61,776 nt of DNA. It comes from Terriglobales bacterium (lineage in GTDB: Bacteria; Acidobacteriota; Terriglobia; Terriglobales; Acidobacteriaceae). Made by a program: the position numbers and the translations under genes. Below are positions 2,704 through 59,498 of the stretch, piece by piece; the first letter of the stretch is position 1; each line of letters opens with the position of its first letter. The notes below the pieces were generated by a model. It made no database searches. It was not told the DNA's origin and saw only the letters and a list, made by a program, of their open reading frames with translations. The DNA is taken from contig DATMAB010000011.1 in NCBI GenBank assembly GCA_035573675.1, positions 1 to 61,776 on the forward strand, in the 5' to 3' direction.

Positions 2704-5231
2704 TGCCCGGCCAAAGCAAGCGACGGCGGCTGGCGCTCGGCCTGGCCGCGACAGCCCTGGCCGCATTGCTGCTGCCCCCCTACGTCAACGCCAACCGCTT
2801 CAAGGGACGGCTGGTGGCGGCGATGGAAGCGGCGCTGGGCCGCTCCGTCCGGGTGGATGAGATCCGCCTGCACCTGCTGCCGCGCCCGGGCTTCGACCTG
2901 CGCAATCTGGTGATCGGCGACGACCCGGCGTTCAGCGCGGAGCCCATGCTGCGCGCTGATGAGGTCACGGCCGCGCTGCGCCTGACCTCGCTCTGGCGCG
3001 GGCGCCTGGAAATCGCCCAGCTCAGCCTGGATTCGCCCAGCCTCAACCTGGTGCGTTCGCCCGAGGGCCGCTGGAACCTGGAAGCGCTGATGGCGCGCGC
3101 CGCCGAAACCCCTTCGGCGCCCACGGCGCTGCCTAGGCCCGAGAGCCGGCCGCGCTTCCCCTACATCGAGGCGGAGAACGGCCGCATCAACTTCAAGCTC
3201 GGACAGGAAAAAAAAGCGCTGGCCCTGGCCGACGCCGACTTCGCCCTGTGGCTGGAATCCGAAAAGGAGTGGGGCATGCGCTTGGAGGCGCGCCCGGTGC
3301 GCACCGATATGAACCTGGGCGACACCGGCGAGCTTCGCATTGCGGGCACGTTAGGACGCGCCGCTGCGCCGGGTGAGCGTCCGCTGCGTCTTTCCGTCCG
3401 GCTGGAAAAAGCGCAACTGGGCCAGCTCTCGGCACTCATCTGGGGGCGGGACCGCGGCTGGCGCGGCGCCCTCGACGCGCGCGCCTCTTTCGCCGGAACG
3501 CCCAACCATCTGCGCCTGGGCGCGGAAGCCGAACTGCGCGACTTCCGCCGCTATGACATCGTAGCCGGCGAGGGGCTGCGCGGGCGTGTGCGCTGTTCGG
3601 CCGCATACCGCGGCGCTTCCGATACGCTCAGCGACGTGGACTGCCTGGCCCCGGTGGGAGAGGGCGACATCGCCGTGCGCGGCATGGTGGGCGGGCTCTT
3701 CGGTGAGCGCCGCTACGACCTGAGTCTCGCCGCCCGCGGAGTGCCCGCCGCTTCCCTGGCGCAGGTCCTGCGCCGCGCCAAACGCGACTTGCCGGGTGAT
3801 TTCGCGGCCGCCGGCGAACTGAACGCCGCTTTCACCCTGCGCTCTTCGGAGGAATCCGGCCTGCCGTCGTGGGCCGGCGGGGGCTCCATAGCCGGACTGC
3901 GGGTGCGCTCCGCGCTGCTCGACCCCGAACTCTCCGTTCCGGATGTGCGTTTCCTGGTGGAGAACCCGGCGCCGCCGAAACCCACCCTCCGCACGCGGGC
4001 TGCGCGCACCGACATTGTTTCCGAACCGCGGCTCAGCCTGCAGCCGCTGCTCATGAATCTCGGCGGGGGAGCGCCGGTCGAGGTGGCAGGATTCTTCTCC
4101 GCGTCCGGATACCGGGTGAGTGTGCGGGGCATGGCCGACATTACGCGGCTCACACGCGTGGCCCGTGCCTTCGGGGTGGAGGCCCCCCTGCTCGATGCCA
4201 GCGGATCGGCGCGCGTGGACCTGGCAGCCGCCGGGCCGTGGGCGGAGTTCGCACCTGCCACGGTGACGGGAACGGCGCAGGTGCGCCGCGTCACCCTGCG
4301 GCTGAGCGGGATCGCTGAACCCGTGGAAGTGTCTGCGGCCGACCTGCGGCTCTCGCCTGAGACGGTGGAACTGCGGCATCTCGCGCTTTCCGTCCCAGCG
4401 GCGCGTCTGAGCCTGACCGGCGAAGCCAGCCGCAGCCGCAACTGTGAACCCGGCTGCCCGGTGCGCTTCACGCTCCACGCTCCCGACATCGCTTTCGACG
4501 AATTGAACCGCCTGTTGAACCCGCAGGTCCATCAGAGGCGCTGGTTCCAGTTCGGCGGACAGCGGGAAGAACCGAGCGTCTTTTCCGATCTGAGTGCCCA
4601 GGGCCGCATCACGGCGGGCCGCGTGCTGATCAAGTCGGTGGCTGCGCAACGCGTGAGCGTGACCGCTCGCCTGGCCGGGGGCCGGCTCGAGCTCGAGGAA
4701 CTGCGTGGCGAACTGCTGGGCGGGCGCCACGAGGGCGTCTGGCACGCCGACTTCACCGGACCCCAGCCGCTCTACTCGGCGGCGGGCCGACTCACCGGAA
4801 TCGCACTCGAGCAGGTAGGCCGCCTGATGCACGACCCCTGGGCGACCGGGCACGTCTCGGCCCGTTACGAGCTGACCACGGCCGGCAGCGCCGCGCCCGC
4901 GCTGGTGCAATCCGCGTCCGGAGAAGTGGAGTTCGACTGGCGTGACGGCGCGATGGCGCGGCTGCTTCTGCCCGCCTCCCCGGCTCCCATGCGGCTGCGG
5001 CGATTCACAGGAAAGCTGGCATTACGCGACGGCATTCTCACGTTCCCCGAAGCCCAGCTCGAAACCGCCGGCGGTACCTACACGGTGACCGGCACGGCGT
5101 CATTGGCGCGCCAGCTCGACCTGCGGCTCGTCCGGGACGAGGCCCACGGCTTCGCGGTCACCGGCACGCTGGCCGCGCCGCGCGTGGCTCCGCTGCCCGT
5201 GCCCGCCACCCGGGCTGCTGTGCTGCCCTAG
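2703..5231 (+). CDS. AsmA-family envelope protein
   Basis: Large (842-residue) protein with an N-terminal signal-anchor (LALGLAATALAALLLPPYVN) followed by an AsmA-type domain. That domain has the pattern NRFKGRLVAAMEAALGRSV, then HLLPRPGFDLRNLVIGD and alternating hydrophobic beta-strands. AsmA-like proteins are inner-membrane-anchored, mostly periplasmic beta-rich proteins, implicated in outer-membrane lipid transport and assembly in diderm bacteria. The rest of the chain is beta-strand-rich with low cysteine content, ending in a second AsmA-like block (about residues 700-830). Its position directly downstream of two signal peptidases, overlapping lepB by one base, fits an envelope-biogenesis operon. 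The precise lipid or protein substrate is unknown. Confidence 0.8.
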   Translation: MPGQSKRRRLALGLAATALAALLLPPYVNANRFKGRLVAAMEAALGRSVRVDEIRLHLLPRPGFDLRNLVIGDDPAFSAEPMLRADEVTAALRLTSLWRGRLEIAQLSLDSPSLNLVRSPEGRWNLEALMARAAETPSAPTALPRPESRPRFPYIEAENGRINFKLGQEKKALALADADFALWLESEKEWGMRLEARPVRTDMNLGDTGELRIAGTLGRAAAPGERPLRLSVRLEKAQLGQLSALIWGRDRGWRGALDARASFAGTPNHLRLGAEAELRDFRRYDIVAGEGLRGRVRCSAAYRGASDTLSDVDCLAPVGEGDIAVRGMVGGLFGERRYDLSLAARGVPAASLAQVLRRAKRDLPGDFAAAGELNAAFTLRSSEESGLPSWAGGGSIAGLRVRSALLDPELSVPDVRFLVENPAPPKPTLRTRAARTDIVSEPRLSLQPLLMNLGGGAPVEVAGFFSASGYRVSVRGMADITRLTRVARAFGVEAPLLDASGSARVDLAAAGPWAEFAPATVTGTAQVRRVTLRLSGIAEPVEVSAADLRLSPETVELRHLALSVPAARLSLTGEASRSRNCEPGCPVRFTLHAPDIAFDELNRLLNPQVHQRRWFQFGGQREEPSVFSDLSAQGRITAGRVLIKSVAAQRVSVTARLAGGRLELEELRGELLGGRHEGVWHADFTGPQPLYSAAGRLTGIALEQVGRLMHDPWATGHVSARYELTTAGSAAPALVQSASGEVEFDWRDGAMARLLLPASPAPMRLRRFTGKLALRDGILTFPEAQLETAGGTYTVTGTASLARQLDLRLVRDEAHGFAVTGTLAAPRVAPLPVPATRAAVLP

Positions 5232-52273: not shown

Positions 52274-53287
52274 ATGTCTGAGCCGCTTCCGCCTACGATC
52301 TCACTCCCGGAACTCTTTCCCCGTGAGGTCATTGTCATTCCGCCGCCACGGCCCCGCCGCCGCGTCTGGCTGCACATCCTGCTCTTCCTCGCCACCGTCT
52401 TCACCACGCTGGTCGTGGGAGCGCGCCTGGAGTTCAATTTCCTTCACAACCGGCCGGCCTACTATGAGGAAGAAGACTTCTTCCCGGTTGCCTGGGCGCT
52501 GAGCGAGCCGTCGCGGCTGTTGCTGGGAACGCCTTTCTCGGTCACGCTGCTGCTCATCCTGCTGGCGCACGAGATGGGCCACTTCGCCTTCTGCGTGCGT
52601 AACGGCGTCTACGCCACGCTTCCCTTTTTCATTCCCGCGCCTACGCTCATCGGGACCTTTGGGGCCTTCATCCGGATCCGCTCGCCCATCCGCTCGCGAA
52701 CTGCGCTCTTTGATATCGGCATCGCCGGACCCATCGCCGGCTTCCTGGTCGCGGTGCCGGCCCTGGCGCTGGGCATGATGCTCTCGCGCGACGCCCCGCT
52801 CGTGGTGAGCCGGTCCGAGCTGCAGTTCGGATATCCCGCCATCTTCGACCTGCTGTGGGCGGTGCTGCCTCTTGGCGATTTGCAGGGCGGATCTTCGATG
52901 CTGCGCGACATTTACTTCCACCCCATCGCCATCGCCGCCTGGGTGGGCATGTTCGCCACCGCGCTGAACCTGATTCCCGGCGGCCAACTCGATGGCGGCC
53001 ACATCGTCTACGCCCTGTCGCCGAGGCTTCACCGGAGCCTCTCCCGCCTGATGGCCGCAGCCCTGGTGCCGATGGCCTACTTCTGGTGGTCCGGGTGGCT
53101 GATGTGGGCCTTCATCCTGCTCATCACCGGCACGCGCCATCCCGCGGTGCCGCCGGTTCCCGAACTCTCCCCAGGACGCAAGCTGCTCGCCCGCTTTGGC
53201 CTGCTCATCCTGTTGCTGACGTTCATCCCCGCACCCTTCGCCGGGGGCTCCCTTCGCGAACTGCTGTTCGCTCCACCGGGCGGCTGA
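52274..53287 (+). CDS. M50-family membrane zinc protease
   Basis: A 337-residue polytopic site-2 protease-like protein. The first helix is VWLHILLFLATVFTTLVVGA. The zinc motif HEMGH is in LILLAHEMGHFAFCVRNGVY at about residue 100, followed by YATLPFFIPAPTLIGTFGAF (re-entrant region). The second metal motif LNLIPGGQLDGGHIVYAL lies at about residue 237. It has no PDZ domain. This arrangement resembles the EcsE/plant EGY-like branch of M50. Substrates are unknown. It is on the same strand as the HU gene and marks the end of the ordinary GC-rich region before the accessory stretch. Confidence 0.9.
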   Translation: MSEPLPPTISLPELFPREVIVIPPPRPRRRVWLHILLFLATVFTTLVVGARLEFNFLHNRPAYYEEEDFFPVAWALSEPSRLLLGTPFSVTLLLILLAHEMGHFAFCVRNGVYATLPFFIPAPTLIGTFGAFIRIRSPIRSRTALFDIGIAGPIAGFLVAVPALALGMMLSRDAPLVVSRSELQFGYPAIFDLLWAVLPLGDLQGGSSMLRDIYFHPIAIAAWVGMFATALNLIPGGQLDGGHIVYALSPRLHRSLSRLMAAALVPMAYFWWSGWLMWAFILLITGTRHPAVPPVPELSPGRKLLARFGLLILLLTFIPAPFAGGSLRELLFAPPGG

Positions 53288-53394
53288 ACAAGGCAATAGC
53301 GCCTTCCGAGGAAGGGACTGGCGTCGGAGTTTACCCCAAACGCGTTACCCCTCCCCCTATAGCCCTCTAATGGAATCATCAGGTTACGGGCCGA

Positions 53395-53500
53395 GATCCC
53401 GGCGGGTCTCGGGATCCAAAGGACTTAGGGGCAAAGTCTCTCGGATAAAGGACTTAGCTCGCTGCCCGGCGGGTTGCGAGTGAAATCCACCGGTTTCGGT
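53395..53500 (+). ncRNA. Candidate structured RNA (unidentified)
   Basis: A succession of potential stems and repeats. First is GATCCCG/CGGGATC (53395-53416). Next are two identical 11-nt direct repeats AAAGGACTTAG at 53418-53428 and 53447-53457. Then comes a strong hairpin ctcgctgccc/gggttgcgag with loop GGC (53458-53480), then GAAA-CC/GG-TTTC (53482-53497). I could not match it to a riboswitch class I know. Either orientation is possible; + is assumed because the HEFIH gene follows on +. Confidence 0.35.
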
Positions 53501-53607
53501 CGCGAGCCTTGTTTTTCAAAGAACCTGGGGAAATTCCGGGGCCGAGCGCCACCGGGTATTCTATCCGGCTAACCAGACATTTCGGAGAATATCAAATTAT
53601 TGCAAAA

Positions 53608-53636
53608 TTGTCAAACGATATCTTGCACAGTATCAT
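53608..53636 (+). promoter_or_regulatory. Promoter upstream of the HEFIH gene
   Basis: TTGTCA (53608-53613), a 17-bp spacer, then TATCAT (53631-53636), in AT-rich surroundings. The start of transcription near 53643 would give a leader of about 140 nt. Confidence 0.7.
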
Positions 53637-53780
53637 TCAGAAAAAGAGGCTGGAGTAAGACGTGATGGCGGCGGGCCGAGCCTGCGGCGGAAGACTGGGC
53701 CACCCGTGCAGGATGGAAGATCTGCCTGGACTGTCACCCCGGATTTACTGTGGGTAGTTTCACGGTGTGCGGAGGTCAGT

Positions 53781-54899
53781 TTGGCGACTACGAAGACCCG
53801 TAACCGAGCCATTTTATTCGTTCCGCTGTTCCTCGGCCTTTGTGCTCTAACGGCGGCCTCGAAACAACCGGGCCAGGCTGCCATCCCGATCGAGCAATTC
53901 CTGAAACAACGCGTTCACGCAGATGTTCATAAGAACATCTTCATCGTATTTGCGTTCCTCAATGCTGCTGGCTACGACTTCGAAAATACCGAGCACATGC
54001 ATCCGGTGAGGGTAGCTGTGCGCAAGGAGGTCGATGCCTCACTTCCCGCAGCGCTTCGGGAAAGAATGCGGACTTATTTTCGAGAGCGGCAAGTGTCTCC
54101 AGCGAATTGGACCTACGCCATCGCTGCCGTTGCGATGGGGCCGCCTCCGAGCTTCGAGTACGGTCCGGAATGGAACGAAGTCAAGAATCAGGAACCTTTC
54201 CGGCAAATCGACGACCTTCCGGTCATGTTGCGCGAATTCTATGGAGCTGTACCAGTGGAGCGGATCTGGGCCGAGCAGAGGCCCGAATATGAACGCACAG
54301 CCGACGAATATCGAGATGCTGTATATCGCGAAGCGCGGCGCGCAATGGACTATTGCCGGGTCCGAACGACGGCCGAACTCGCCGGCTCCGGCGAGACCAA
54401 AGAAGCGGTCATCATTCCTAATCTCCTCGACTCCTACGAGACAGCGACCTCCTTCATCTGGGGTGGCGCGTTCCACTCGGTCGAAGGTCCGCAATATAGC
54501 GTCGGCTACAACCCACATGAGTTCATTCACGCGATCACGAATCCCTCAAGCTATTCTTCTCAATACTCCCGCATGCAAGAAAAGGCTCGGCCGCTTTACG
54601 AGCTGTCCAAACAGACCAAAACTGGCAAGGATCTCAAGAGCCTGCAGTCATTCCTGGACGAGAACTTAGTGCGAGCCATTTCGCTGCGATACCTGAGGGG
54701 CGACGATAAGAGAAGGCTGGAGCTGCGAAACGCGATGATGCAGGAATATCGCGCCGGTTATACCATGGAGCGCTTCTTTTATGACGAACTGGAGCAATAC
54801 GAACGGAGCAAAAAGAGTCTGCGCGAGTTTTATCCGACGTTCTTCAAGCGCCTGAATGCACACAAGGAAGTCAACGAGTGGAAGAAACAGCAGCAATAA
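53781..54899 (+). CDS. Secreted metallopeptidase-like protein with HEFIH motif
   Basis: A 372-residue exported protein. After a hydrophobic signal (RAILFVPLFLGLCALTAA) the mature chain contains VGYNPHEFIHAITNPSSYSS, an HExxH zinc motif at residues 246-250. A possible third acidic ligand follows in the helix SFLDENLVRAISLRYL. The arrangement recalls DUF4932-type putative metalloproteases, but identity is uncertain. The C-terminal third is helical and Lys/Glu-rich. TTG 53781 is chosen because GGAGG lies 5 nt before it and the signal peptide then falls at the N terminus; a GTG at 53706 would add 25 residues. Codons are clearly less GC-rich than in neighbouring housekeeping genes, a sign of recent acquisition. 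Confidence 0.72.
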   Translation: MATTKTRNRAILFVPLFLGLCALTAASKQPGQAAIPIEQFLKQRVHADVHKNIFIVFAFLNAAGYDFENTEHMHPVRVAVRKEVDASLPAALRERMRTYFRERQVSPANWTYAIAAVAMGPPPSFEYGPEWNEVKNQEPFRQIDDLPVMLREFYGAVPVERIWAEQRPEYERTADEYRDAVYREARRAMDYCRVRTTAELAGSGETKEAVIIPNLLDSYETATSFIWGGAFHSVEGPQYSVGYNPHEFIHAITNPSSYSSQYSRMQEKARPLYELSKQTKTGKDLKSLQSFLDENLVRAISLRYLRGDDKRRLELRNAMMQEYRAGYTMERFFYDELEQYERSKKSLREFYPTFFKRLNAHKEVNEWKKQQQ

Positions 54900-54908
54900 A
54901 GTTGCCCG

Positions 54909-55171
54909 CGTGACCTGCCCCACCCTAAACCCGCACAAAGCTGAGCATGATTCGCACGTTCGGGGAGGCGTCGAGCAGGGGAAGACACAGAGTAGGCGCT
55001 GAACCTCGACGGATTCCAGCGCGCAGCCTACAGCAACTGCAACGCGTCCACATCCACAATGACGTTCGTGCGCGGAATCTTCTGCGAGTCGGCGTAGGCG
55101 ATGAGCGCGCGCAGGGTTTCATTCAGTCGCTTGCGGCTGGCGGACTTGAGCACGAAGTGGTGGCGATAGTC
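54909..55171. repeat. Direct repeat copy A (priA 3' end plus downstream)
   Basis: 263-bp copy of 56933-57194, in the same orientation and roughly 93% identical by eye. It covers the last 47 codons of priA and about 115 bp beyond its stop. It begins 9 bp after the HEFIH gene stop codon. Confidence 0.9.
55028..55171 (-). pseudogene. priA: priA 3'-end remnant
   Basis: Reads on the minus strand as DYRHHFVLKSASRKRLNETL, continuing RALIAYADSQKIPRTNVIVD and ending VDALQLL-stop. It differs from the end of the intact PriA by a single residue (YRHHF for YRYHF). Upstream of this the homology stops abruptly and unrelated sequence follows, so no helicase domain exists. It is a non-functional duplicate of the priA tail left when the neighbouring segment was duplicated or integrated. 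Confidence 0.88.
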
Positions 55172-55406
55172 ACCGGTCCAACTGTCCGCTGATGGCCAAC
55201 CGAGCTCATCTAATTCTTTTCTTTTCCTGGGGTTACCGTGTATCCACACCTGTTGTTCCGCTTGTGGAACAAAATCGGACTTTCTGCTCACGCCGGGCCT
55301 TTTTCGTGCTACCTTGCCGCCTGTAGAATGAAGCTCGTGCGGCTGCGCAGATGGCTATCGAGGCAGCCCCTAGGGGCGCGCAGTAATCCGCGAAGGAGCA
55401 AGTTCA
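55172..55406. other. Leader region of the first paralogue gene
   Basis: Unique AT-richer sequence between the priA remnant and the gene at 55407. It contains the palindrome at 55253-55272 and a polypyrimidine stretch (ctaattcttttcttttcctg). No clear -35/-10 pair is recognised. Confidence 0.5.
55253..55272. promoter_or_regulatory. Palindromic operator-like site 1 (TTGTTCC-N6-GGAACAA)
   Basis: Perfect 7-bp arms around a 6-bp centre, 134 bp upstream of the first paralogue gene. The same TGTTCC-N6-GGAACA core occurs at 56120-56137 upstream of the second paralogue. Confidence 0.6.
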
Positions 55407-56087
55407 GTGAGACCCTCCGTTCCTCTCTTCGTCCTTCTCGCAATCGGCTTGGGCGCCAATTGGCAATCGGAACCGCCCGACAAGACTTCGGATGTGTCTA
55501 GACCGCGCAGAGAACATGCGGCTCTCTTCAACCAATACCGAGCAGGAGAGAGACTGTCGCGTAGAGCACAGCGGGAGGGACGTTTTGAGGTCACTGCAGG
55601 TCAATTTCCAGGTACACCGGGAGCTCTAAGCAGCGCTCCGCCCCTGCCTGCCGACTATCGATTCCGGCAGGCCCTCCTTGAAGCCGATGCGATCCTGGCG
55701 GGCAAGGTGCTTACTAGGTCGTCCGCACTCACTGAGAATGAAGAATTCATTTATAGCGACTATTCAGTCTTGGTGCAGCTAGTCCTGAGGAATGACCCAA
55801 CTGCTCCAATAAAGTCTGGTTCCACAATCACCGTGACCCGCCCCGGTGGCGAATTGCAACTCAATGGGCATACAGTTCGTGCAATCGATGGGTTCTTCAA
55901 GCCGTTCATATTGGGCCAATCCTACATTCTCATCGTGCGCCGCATTCCCGTAACTGGAGCCTATCTGGCCACCCCAGAAGGGAGTTATCAACTCGTGGAT
56001 CAAAGGGCGATTAGCCTCTGTGCGGGTGCTCGGTCCACTGGCGTACTTCGTGTCGCGAACACCGAGGATTTGACTCCGCAAAGGTAG
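55407..56087 (+). CDS. Secreted protein, paralogue 1, unknown function
   Basis: A 226-residue exported protein with a signal peptide (RPSVPLFVLLAIGLGANWQ). An Arg-rich mature N terminus precedes a beta-rich domain from about residue 85: LLEADAILAGKVLTRSSALT, then IYSDYSVLVQLVLRNDPTAP, SGSTITVTRPGGELQLNG and FFKPFILGQSYILIVRRIP. This succession of strands is also found in the next gene, so they are paralogues. No known family recognised. GTG 55407 is preceded by AAGGAG about 9 nt upstream. Base composition is lower in GC than the surrounding core genes. Confidence 0.7.
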   Translation: MRPSVPLFVLLAIGLGANWQSEPPDKTSDVSRPRREHAALFNQYRAGERLSRRAQREGRFEVTAGQFPGTPGALSSAPPLPADYRFRQALLEADAILAGKVLTRSSALTENEEFIYSDYSVLVQLVLRNDPTAPIKSGSTITVTRPGGELQLNGHTVRAIDGFFKPFILGQSYILIVRRIPVTGAYLATPEGSYQLVDQRAISLCAGARSTGVLRVANTEDLTPQR

Positions 56088-56118
56088 TCATGAGCGCGAC
56101 ACGATGGGCCATGTGCTC

Positions 56119-56137
56119 TTGTTCCGATCACGGAACA
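56119..56137. promoter_or_regulatory. Palindromic operator-like site 2 (TTGTTCC-N6-GGAACA)
   Basis: Core TGTTCCGATCACGGAACA at 56120-56137 has perfect arms of 7 bp around a 4-bp centre. It lies 65 bp before the second paralogue gene and matches the outer arms and spacing of site 1. Confidence 0.6.
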
Positions 56138-56202
56138 CAAACGAGAAAGGTGAAAGCAAGGTCAGGAGTGAGAGTAGATTGGAGAGTCTGAGAAGGTGCG
56201 AG

Positions 56203-56937
56203 ATGAGACAAGTTGTAGTTGTAATGCTGGCGATCGTCGCGCTTGGCGCCACATCGGCAAGGCCACAAGGGAAGTCTGATACAGCAGCGCTTCGGTCACC
56301 CTCTTCCCAAGAGCCAACTGCCGAGTACAGTGGGATGCAGCCTGGGGATACCGTTCCCCGCGATTTACGCGAGAAGCGAAACGCTCAACATCAAGCGAGT
56401 GGACGGGCCCCGATTTCTGAACTCCCGGAAGGAGTTGAAGAGCTCCCGGTAATTAATCACTGGTGGCTTGAGGTTCCTGCGATCCCTGCAGCACAAAGCG
56501 CTCTGATTGTGATCGCATCCGTCGCTGATTCGCGCGCGTTTCTGTCCGCAGACCATACTTCGGTGTACTCGGAATTCACTCTCTCGGTAGAGAGAACAGT
56601 AAGGAATTGCGCACGCAGTGCCGAATTCTCGAGAGGAGACCGAATTACAGCCGAACGAGCAGGCGGAGCGGTGCGATTCCCCTCCGGACGCGTTCAAAGC
56701 TACAGAATCGCAAATCAAGGCTTTCCGAAAAACAACCGGAGATACGTTGTCTTCCTTAAGGCGAACGAAGAAGGCCAGGACTTTATCATCATCACCGCCT
56801 ATGAGCTAAGAAACGGTCGTGTGAAGCCGCTGGACGGCGAATCACAGCTGCAATTTTCAAAGTACTCCGGGACGCTGGAGGAGGATTTTCTCTCTGAAGT
56901 GGAGAGGGCTGCCGCGCTGCCCTGCGAAGCGTCGTGA
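56203..56937 (+). CDS. Secreted protein, paralogue 2, unknown function
   Basis: A 244-residue exported protein with a signal peptide (RQVVVVMLAIVALGATSARP). A polar linker leads to the same beta-rich domain as paralogue 1: SALIVIASVADSRAFLSADH, then TSVYSEFTLSVERTVRNCAR, GDRITAERAGGAVRFPSG and NNRRYVVFLKANEEGQDFII. ATG 56203 is supported by GAGAAGG 7 nt upstream and places the signal peptide first; an ATG at 56104 would add 33 residues and run through palindrome site 2. The stop codon lies inside the first bases of direct repeat copy B, so the duplication boundary coincides with the gene end. Confidence 0.7.
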   Translation: MRQVVVVMLAIVALGATSARPQGKSDTAALRSPSSQEPTAEYSGMQPGDTVPRDLREKRNAQHQASGRAPISELPEGVEELPVINHWWLEVPAIPAAQSALIVIASVADSRAFLSADHTSVYSEFTLSVERTVRNCARSAEFSRGDRITAERAGGAVRFPSGRVQSYRIANQGFPKNNRRYVVFLKANEEGQDFIIITAYELRNGRVKPLDGESQLQFSKYSGTLEEDFLSEVERAAALPCEAS

Positions 56938-57194
56938 CCTGCTCCCCTAAATCCGCACAAAGCTGAGCATGATTTGCACGTTCGGGAGGCTTCGAGCAGG
57001 GGAAGACACAGAAGTAGGCGCTGAACCTCGACGGATTCGAGCGCGCAGCCTCACAGCAGTTGCAGCGCGTCCACATCCACAATGACGTTGGTGCGCGGAA
57101 TCTTCTGCGAGTCGGCGTAGGCGATGAGCGCGCGCAGGGTCTCATTCAGTCGCTTGCGGCTGGCGGACTTGAGCACGAAGTGGTAGCGATAGTC
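56933..57194. repeat. Direct repeat copy B (priA 3' end plus downstream)
   Basis: The copy attached to intact priA. It matches copy A (54909-55171) from the sequence CGTGACCTG through codon 47 from the priA end. The two copies bracket the two paralogue genes (about 1.76 kb of unique sequence). Confidence 0.9.
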
Positions 57195-59498
57195 GCGCTT
57201 CAGACGGAGTATGGGCGCAGCCGCGGGGCCGAGCACGCGAAAGTCCGCCGGACGCGACTTCGCCGTGCTCTCGAACCAGCGACCCAGCAGGCCAGCCCAG
57301 CGCAGGGCGCGCTCCAGCTTGTCACTCCGGAGCAAGACGTTGGCGACGGCGGTGAACGGCGGGTAGCGCATCCAGCGGCGAAAGCGCAGTTCCTTTTCGA
57401 AGAAGCCTTCGTAGTCGTGCCGGGCGGCAAACTGGATGGCATAGTGCTCGGGGAAATAGGTCTGGAGGACGACGCGGCCGGGCGTGGAGCCGCGGCCGGC
57501 GCGCCCTGCGACCTGGGTGAGCAACTGAAAGGTGCGTTCGGCGGCGCGAAAGTCAGGAAAGCCGAGGGCGAAGTCCGCGCCCACGACGCCCACCAGCGTG
57601 ACCCCGTGGACGTCGTGCCCCTTGGCGATCATCTGCGTCCCCACCAGCAGGTCGAATTCGCCGGCATGGAAGGCGGCCAGAATGCGCTCGAAGTCGTGGC
57701 GTCCGCGAACGGTGTCGCGATCCAGGCGCCCGATGCGCGCCGTGGGAAACGCCGAGTGCAGGCGCTCTTCCAGCTTCTCTGAACCCGAGCCCAGGAAATA
57801 GACGTAGTCGCTGCCGCACTGCGGGCAGACACGGGGCACAGGCTGCTGATGCCCGCAGTAATGGCAGACCAGGCGGTTCATGCGCTTGTGGAAGGTGAGG
57901 GCGATGGCGCAATTGGCGCATTCGACCGTGCGTCCGCAGGCGCGGCAGAGCACGGCGGCGGAATAGCCCCGCCGGTTCAGCAGGATGATGGCCTGCTCGC
58001 CGCGCTCCAGTCGCTGGCGGACCTCGGCCAGCAGCGCGCGGGAAAACAGCTGGTCTTCGCCGGTCTCCTTGAACTCGGCGCGCATGTCCACGACTTCGAC
58101 CTCGGGCAGCGGGCGCTGCTCGACGCGCTGCCGCAACTCGAGGCGCGCGTACTTTCCCTGCTGCGCGTTGTAGAACGACTCCAGCGAAGGTGTGGCCGAA
58201 CCCATCACGACGGCGGCATCCAGGAACTTGGCGCGCATCACGGCCACGTCGCGAGCGTGATAGCGCGGGGTCTCCTCCTGCTTATAGGAAGAATCCTGCT
58301 CCTCATCGACCACGATCAGCCGCAGGTCCCGCACCGGCGCGAACACCGCTGAGCGCGTCCCGACGACGATGCGGGCCTCCCCCCGGCGGATGCGATGCCA
58401 CTGCTCGGCGCGCTCGCGCAAACTGAGAGCCGAATGGAGCAGCGCTACTTCATCGCCGAACACCTGCGCCAGATTGGCGGCCGCAGCCGGCGTGAGCCCG
58501 ATCTCCGGCACCAGCAAAATAGCGGAGCCGCCCGCCGCCAGCACCGACTGCATGGCGGCCAGATAGACCGCGGTCTTGCCCGAACCGGTGACGCCATACA
58601 GCAGCGTCACGGAGAACTTTCCGGCGCGCACGGCGGCCTCGATCTTCTCCAGCGCTTCCCGCTGTTCCCGGTTGAATTCCCAGCCGGCGCTGTGGGTGGC
58701 GGGCATGCGCGTGAGGCGAAAGCTTTCCGGCTCCTGCCGGATCTCGATGACGCCGCGCCGCACCAGCGTGCCCAGCGTCGTCCTGGGAATGGCAAGGTCG
58801 CGCAGCGCGTCCACCGGCAGCCGGCCGCCGGCCGCGGCCAGCGTCTCCACCAGCGTCTTCTGGTTGGCGTTGAGCTTCCCACTGACCTCGTGCAGCAGGG
58901 CCATGCGCTGCAGGCGCCGAGCATCGCGTGCCGCCGAAACATCCTGCCGCACCAGCCACTTCTTGCGCAGCATGCCCTCGAGCAGCGGGCGACCGGCGCC
59001 GGTGGCTGCGCGCAGTGAGGCTCCTCGCGCAGATTCGTGCCCCGCCAGGTAATCCAGCACGCGGTACTCGGTCATCTGCTCATCGGGAGTGCGCCGCGAG
59101 CGCGCGGACGAACCGCGCTCCGCGGATTCGTGCAGCGCGGCCAGGCCGGCCTCCGTGATGTTCCACACGATCTCGCGCTTCACCTCGGCCGCGAGCGGCA
59201 ACATGGTGCGAAACACCTCTCCCAGCGGCGCCAGGTAGTAGCCCGCGATCCAGTCGGCCAGCCGCAACAGGTCGGCGTCGAGAACCGGCTCTGCATCCAG
59301 CACGTCGATCACGGTCTTGGCCTCCACCGAGGGTGGCTTGTCGTGCAGTGCCGTGACCACGCCCGCCAGGCGCTGGCTGCGGAACGGCACCAGCACGCGC
59401 CCGCCGACCACCGGCGGCATCCGCCCGTCACCCGCCAGCCGATAGGTGAAGGTGATATCGAGGGGCACGGGCAGCGCGACATCGCAGAAGGAGGGCAT
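57051..59498 (-). CDS. priA: Primosomal protein N' (PriA helicase)
   Basis: Superfamily 2 DNA helicase that restarts stalled replication forks. The 815-residue protein has an N-terminal DNA-binding domain, with DITFTYRLAGDGRMPPVVGG and VLVPFRSQRLAGVVTALHDK. It has a Walker A motif in LLYGVTGSGKTAVYLAAM near residue 300 and a DEEQ box in LIVVDEEQDSSYKQEETPRY. The zinc-binding cluster is CRACGRTVECANCAIALTFH, then CHYCGHQQPVPRVCPQC (about residues 535-580). Helicase motifs V-VI are in LVGTQMIAKGHDVHGVTLVG and LTQVAGRAGRGSTPGRV. It is complete; its last 47 codons are duplicated at 55028-55171. Confidence 0.97.
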   Translation of the reverse strand: MPSFCDVALPVPLDITFTYRLAGDGRMPPVVGGRVLVPFRSQRLAGVVTALHDKPPSVEAKTVIDVLDAEPVLDADLLRLADWIAGYYLAPLGEVFRTMLPLAAEVKREIVWNITEAGLAALHESAERGSSARSRRTPDEQMTEYRVLDYLAGHESARGASLRAATGAGRPLLEGMLRKKWLVRQDVSAARDARRLQRMALLHEVSGKLNANQKTLVETLAAAGGRLPVDALRDLAIPRTTLGTLVRRGVIEIRQEPESFRLTRMPATHSAGWEFNREQREALEKIEAAVRAGKFSVTLLYGVTGSGKTAVYLAAMQSVLAAGGSAILLVPEIGLTPAAAANLAQVFGDEVALLHSALSLRERAEQWHRIRRGEARIVVGTRSAVFAPVRDLRLIVVDEEQDSSYKQEETPRYHARDVAVMRAKFLDAAVVMGSATPSLESFYNAQQGKYARLELRQRVEQRPLPEVEVVDMRAEFKETGEDQLFSRALLAEVRQRLERGEQAIILLNRRGYSAAVLCRACGRTVECANCAIALTFHKRMNRLVCHYCGHQQPVPRVCPQCGSDYVYFLGSGSEKLEERLHSAFPTARIGRLDRDTVRGRHDFERILAAFHAGEFDLLVGTQMIAKGHDVHGVTLVGVVGADFALGFPDFRAAERTFQLLTQVAGRAGRGSTPGRVVLQTYFPEHYAIQFAARHDYEGFFEKELRFRRWMRYPPFTAVANVLLRSDKLERALRWAGLLGRWFESTAKSRPADFRVLGPAAAPILRLKRDYRYHFVLKSASRKRLNETLRALIAYADSQKIPRTNVIVDVDALQLL

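Follow-up and report, generated by a model that had tools for sequence, protein, structure and literature searches.

In the window analyzed here (the whole 61,776-nucleotide stretch of DNA from a Terriglobales bacterium), the slot between priA and a convergent M50 peptidase gene holds two different loads of cargo genes and, between them, a detached copy of the priA 3′ end, an arrangement which we read, with somewhat better than even confidence, as a hotspot to which a diverged allele was added, not exchanged, leaving two loads stacked. For hotspots free of mobile elements, the evidence for cargo exchange normally comes from swaps already completed; if our reading is true, the scar in this window shows cargo being added with an essential neighbor rebuilt, and also provides a sign of such additions that can be counted.

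The repeated priA end and the extra stretch

A sequence-only reading of this DNA had pointed to a direct repeat comprising the final 47 priA codons with about 115 bp downstream of them, and both the coordinates and the orientation were borne out: positions 54,909–55,171 pair with 56,933–57,194 (BLAST, E ~1e-110), and the global alignment that had been proposed as a check (54,911–55,171 against 56,935–57,194) has 247 of 263 columns identical, with 11 mismatches and five gap columns, a likeness far above chance expectation. Each copy contains the final 47 priA codons, on the minus strand, followed by approximately 117 bp. A search of the genome with 54,900–57,200 returned no third copy, only short matches. 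The copy distant from priA (copy A) was rightly called a dead fragment, as it comprises priA residues 769–815 only (tblastn), is devoid of the remainder of the gene and is followed by unrelated DNA from 55,172 onwards, with no homology seen at this inner junction and no M50 fragment found near it. The features of the slot and its borders are as follows:

52,274–53,287, plus strand: M50 peptidase gene (PF02163), the core gene at the other edge of the slot, convergent with priA
53,296–57,047, no strand: entire extra stretch, missing in G001; G+C 55.6%
53,706–54,899, plus strand: cargo ORF of 397 aa, the second load, with a weak DUF4932 match under its cut-off; absent from the G001 slot
54,911–54,963, plus strand: IS3-like tip of copy A (four-tip alignment; exact pattern match)
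54,911–55,171, no strand: repeat copy A, consisting of the IS3-like tip, a spacer and the dead fragment with the last 47 codons of priA
55,171/55,172, no strand: inner junction, where priA codon 769 abuts unrelated sequence and the alignment stops
55,407–56,087, plus strand: cargo ORF of 226 aa without a Pfam match, distantly paralogous to ORF 56104
56,104–56,937, plus strand: cargo ORF of 277 aa, start possibly further in, no significant Pfam match
56,935–56,984, plus strand: IS3-like tip of copy B (88% over 51 bp at G000:C6:362–412; 90% over 41 bp at C1:1781–1821)
56,935–57,194, no strand: repeat copy B, consisting of the IS3-like tip, the spacer and the final 47 codons of the intact priA gene
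57,051–59,498, minus strand: priA, intact ORF of 815 aa with PriA 3′BD, PriA_C, Zn-ribbon and helicase domains; core gene bounding the slot, present in 40 of 41 genomes

An insertion at priA, as proposed in the sequence-only reading, is supported by the priA downstream region of G001, the sole other genome of the genus in the set, where priA and the M50 gene lie tail to tail approximately 20 bp apart, with one copy of the priA 3′ end and none of the segment in question. The extent of the insertion, however, had been put too low: the two genes within about 1.76 kb between the repeats are indeed there (ORFs 55,407–56,087 and 56,104–56,937), but the similarity between the window and G001 leaps from 57,048 to 53,295 (blastn), and because G001 is devoid of everything between priA and the M50 gene, the extra stretch is 53,296–57,047, i.e., 3.75 kb, which is about twice the bracketed segment and takes in ORF 53,706–54,899. 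It is also lower in G+C (55.6%, with 54.6–55.8% in the cargo) than priA (68.1%), the M50 gene (65.8%) and the window (64.9%).

The two ORFs between the repeats are accessory, since relatives of ORF 55407 and ORF 56104 are found in just 9 and 13 of the 200 family genomes, respectively (own genome counted in both cases), the best one for the latter being 43% identical (G070). Their supposed paralogy holds, distant as it is, with a direct BLASTP E-value of 0.001 across 58 aa and with both queries matching the same ORFs in four other genomes (G019, G045, G124 and G158), and their products may be secreted, going by hydrophobic N-termini judged by eye. Distant relatives of ORF 53706 occur in 184 of the 200 family genomes, with a second one inside its own genome, mostly at approximately 25% identity among the matches listed, where the sole closer one is in G205 (56% over 87 aa). 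None of the three slot ORFs of the window matched a transposase or integrase model in Pfam, and Rfam returned for 52,900–57,300 only one chance match, far under the gathering score. A structure prediction for ORF 56104 from a two-row alignment was set aside (mean pLDDT of 45.7).

The outer edges of the two copies are not arbitrary sequence: each consists of the tip of an IS3-like element, which forms their common outer boundary. Both genomic matches of this tip (C6 and C1) sit upstream of an OrfA-like frame, the one at C6 matching PF01527; the family, which we take to be IS3, is named from this domain and the tip. The stretch common to the four aligned tips starts with TGACC in every one, ORF 56104 has its stop codon in the first three bases of the copy B tip, and outside the tip lie ORF 53706 at copy A and ORF 56104 at copy B. 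An IS3 transposon would have orfA/orfB between inverted ends, whereas each copy has approximately 50 bp of one tip, and inspection of the copies by eye revealed neither a complete element nor a second end or target duplication. Elsewhere in the genome, at C1 1781–3383 (L121), the IS3-like tip and an OrfA-like start are followed a few hundred bases on by an IS110-type transposase on the opposite strand, as if one element sits in or beside the other.

The slot in relatives

Altogether, 69 loci were examined, consisting of a first set of 29 and a further 40 chosen by hand from the listed family matches, mainly on long contigs, which makes them a non-random sample. The M50 gene was in view at 37 of them, with the gap to priA (measured between protein-match ends, and hence with an error of up to tens of bases) being under 200 bp in 21, 200–1000 bp in six and over 1 kb in ten; many of the other 32 loci were contig ends or belonged to more distant relatives. 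In relatives, then, many slots are empty and the filled ones differ in their genes, even inside one genus. Among 25 ORFs scanned from the slots of 12 relatives (called mechanically, so that some are perhaps not genes), none matched a transposase or integrase in Pfam; the matches included phosphorylase, lactonase, amino-acid permease, F5/8 type C and response regulator domains, among others, and 6 of 21 of these ORFs had no Pfam match at E 1e-5. A 9.3 kb gap in G046 was rejected as cargo, as it holds housekeeping-like genes (an S1 protein and a DNA ligase) and is more of a rearrangement.

Genus g7 illustrates the variation best: the slot is nearly empty in G191 (191 bp); G158 has a single 337 aa ORF there and G138 a permease, G007 and G205 each have a large ORF (75% identical between them), and G098 carries both the G158 and the G138 kinds (60% and 92% identical) plus a third ORF. 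Judged from these sequences, this is what cassette exchange between fixed neighbors looks like. G098 shows no scar despite its double load, so that a scar is not an obligatory trace of stacking or of loss from a doubled slot. A priA scan of further genome contigs yielded 32 distant loci and no near relative, and these searches turned up no genome carrying the allele of the supposed donor.

Further candidate scars at priA

Two matches to the priA C-terminus were obtained in six family genomes (G000, to which the window belongs, G015, G074, G077, G111 and G202), and among the 191 family genomes having a priA C-terminal match, two cases, the window and G015, are sound, which makes the sign rare here. 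In G015, which belongs to another genus, the order is priA, a cargo block, fused M50/priA fragments, a response-regulator ORF, an M50 fragment, a TPR-protein ORF and M50. A 101 bp M50 3′ fragment is fused directly to a 176 bp priA 3′ fragment that terminates at the stop codon, and a further M50 3′ fragment of 205 bp lies between the response-regulator and TPR-protein ORFs. The blocks differ in content, the breakpoints are not those of the window, and no IS3-like tip was seen at the G015 scars.

The remaining candidates were rejected: in G111, the two short matches adjoin runs of N, possibly a scaffolding effect; in G202, the two near-full copies come from separate contigs, and the genome has 5% contamination; in G077, one gene is divided into two matches; and in G074, the second match is weak. 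G111 has two further peculiarities, namely a serine recombinase-like frame (by eye) beside a priA 3′ fragment, across an N run (G111:C145, L174, 1–660), and a priA devoid of residues 697–753 at a two-base N run and out of frame thereafter (G111:C7, L173, ~3216–3227), the loss probably being a scaffolding gap. In G040 (L040), a 137 bp internal piece of priA, without the 3′ end, is repeated downstream at 93% identity (3529–3661 and 4722–4858).

Divergence of the copies

Between the window copies, coding differences (without stop codons) number five synonymous and one nonsynonymous, and copy A agrees with G001 at all five synonymous sites, copy B doing so at the nonsynonymous one, which gives one derived change on dead copy A vs. 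five on the functional copy. Had copy A been dead since it was copied, most changes would be expected on A, yet five of the six fall on the functional branch (P 0.002–0.004 for at least five of six if the fragment had arisen by duplication and then decayed neutrally), a test that, like those below, assumes independent neutral changes and is small, with six coding differences in the window and one outgroup. The proportion of synonymous changes gives P 0.05–0.10 for the window alone. The G015 priA fragment has seven synonymous and two nonsynonymous differences and one indel, the M50 fragments there showing synonymous to nonsynonymous ratios of 4 to 1 and 5 to 4, with no signal in the longer one (5 to 4, P 0.29–0.46). 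Pooling gives 12 of 15 synonymous for priA (P 0.003–0.013) and 21 of 29 for all four fragments (P 0.0007–0.008).

The coding changes would thus fit better with two alleles that had diverged in separate strains before being joined. The spacer changes do not appear to favor such an origin, with copy A looking more derived than copy B by eye on the alignment; a crossover within the repeat, leaving each copy with parts of both alleles, could reconcile the two signals. The sequence-only reading took the divergence as a sign of an event that is not very recent; this conclusion is not warranted, as the distribution of the coding changes fits prior allelic divergence better; if our reading is true, the divergence between the copies need not date their joining.

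Proposed course of events and its rivals

The donor, the native copy, the single crossover, the illegitimate end and the entry route are what we infer from this anatomy, and the course of events might have been as follows. Lineages would hold different cargo in the priA–M50 slot, swapped via recombination in the conserved flanking genes. One allele would have consisted of priA, the spacer, the IS3-like tip, ORF 53706 and M50, and incoming DNA from a diverged relative would have brought a priA 3′ end, the spacer, the IS3-like tip and ORFs 56104 and 55407. A single crossover of the incoming DNA inside the shared repeat, with its other end joined without homology at priA codon 769, would have resulted in cargo being gained and not replaced, priA being rebuilt intact, and the old priA 3′ end being left behind as a scar. 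Counting against this course are the derived look of the copy A spacer, the differently placed breakpoints of G015, the rarity of sound cases, the scarless double load of G098 and the failure of the searches to turn up the donor allele. The Campbell-type integration suggested in the sequence-only reading, i.e., one crossover, is compatible with this, its other suggestion, a plain segmental duplication, being less good. A ComEC homologue is encoded in the genome, but also in 10 of 14 control genomes, and therefore shows little; it is a weak sign of DNA uptake.

An ordinary segmental duplication, in which the priA 3′ end and the spacer would have been copied within one genome, the cargo coming separately or alongside, and the distal copy would have decayed, seems to us unlikely, although it would leave the same anatomy and agrees with the more derived look of the copy A spacer (by eye): the skew of derived coding changes towards the functional copy is the opposite of what it predicts, and the two copies adjoin different cargo. 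More improbable still is an assembly chimera of two strain variants of the locus fused into one contig from a mixed sample, which would indeed predict a pair of alleles differing mainly at synonymous sites, the pattern observed; the genome, however, is in 28 contigs with an estimated contamination of 0.11%, there is no shared sequence at the 55,172 junction for an assembler to join on, and a similar arrangement occurs in a separate assembly, that of G015.

We give just as little credence to an IS3-driven origin, by which one-ended transposition would have moved 260 bp (from the tip to priA codon 769) or adjacent deletions would have brought in different cargo: the tip does form the outward end of both copies, but neither a complete element nor a second end or target duplication is recognizable there by eye, no such tip was seen in G015, and the skew of coding changes would be left unexplained. 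A site-specific element integrated at the priA 3′ end, bringing in a replacement gene end and displacing the original one to its far side, appears very improbable, even though a rebuilt end nearby and a displaced fragment further off resemble islands at gene ends. Such an island has an integrase and a constant att core, whereas there is no recombinase among the three ORFs of the window, the edges and breakpoints differ between the window and G015, and M50 ends are repeated in the latter as well.

Relation to known systems

Addition of a diverged allele, as we propose it, has its nearest known kinds in the minimal mobile elements (MMEs) of Neisseria and in hotspots without mobile elements. An MME, as described, is a region between two conserved genes holding different whole-gene cassettes in different strains, without mobility genes of its own, and is defined by incorporation solely through homologous recombination (PMC3898611). 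The slot is similarly placed between two conserved genes (M50 is next to priA or close by at 37 of 69 loci) and likewise holds different whole-gene cassettes, here between species, including those within genus g7; MMEs, however, concern strains of one species and are described as exchanged, whereas our comparison is across species of a family, and the loads here are stacked, with a fragment of the flanking gene left behind. Hotspots without recognizable mobile elements also carry variable genes between core genes, and the motor proposed for them is recombination within those flanking genes (PMC5635113); the model outlined there is a double exchange at both flanks, whereas here homologous joining seems to account for one side and illegitimate joining for the other.

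One homologous and one illegitimate end are the mark of homology-facilitated illegitimate recombination, in the account of which circularized DNA can also integrate by one crossover (PMC3240628). The window likewise has a homologous repeat on one side and an unrelated junction on the other, as a plain duplication would also leave, but the events in that account are laboratory ones with small DNAs, whereas ours is read from natural sequence. Transformation merodiploids of S. pneumoniae are tandem duplications arising after recombination with imported DNA, with incomplete IS copies at the borders, although in one clone a duplication of 3,276 bp lacked flanking repeats (PMC3784515); those described are mostly ~100–900 kb with the same genes doubled, whereas here there are two different loads.

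Should hotspots between convergent core genes grow stepwise by additive one-sided recombination, with core-gene end fragments recording each step, a generalization that we put forward tentatively and would not expect to hold on balance, the window with its two loads and G015 with its three blocks would represent two stages of this growth, and stacking could be counted by a search for scars.

A palindrome near the cargo genes

The palindrome TGTTCC-N6-GGAACA occurs at 55,254–55,271 and 56,120–56,137, near the start of both ORF 55407 and ORF 56104, and is a candidate operator. It is found nine times in the genome vs. none for a reversed-pattern control, six times each in G001 and G008, and at least once in 19 of 41 genomes, the genes near the remaining sites being mixed.
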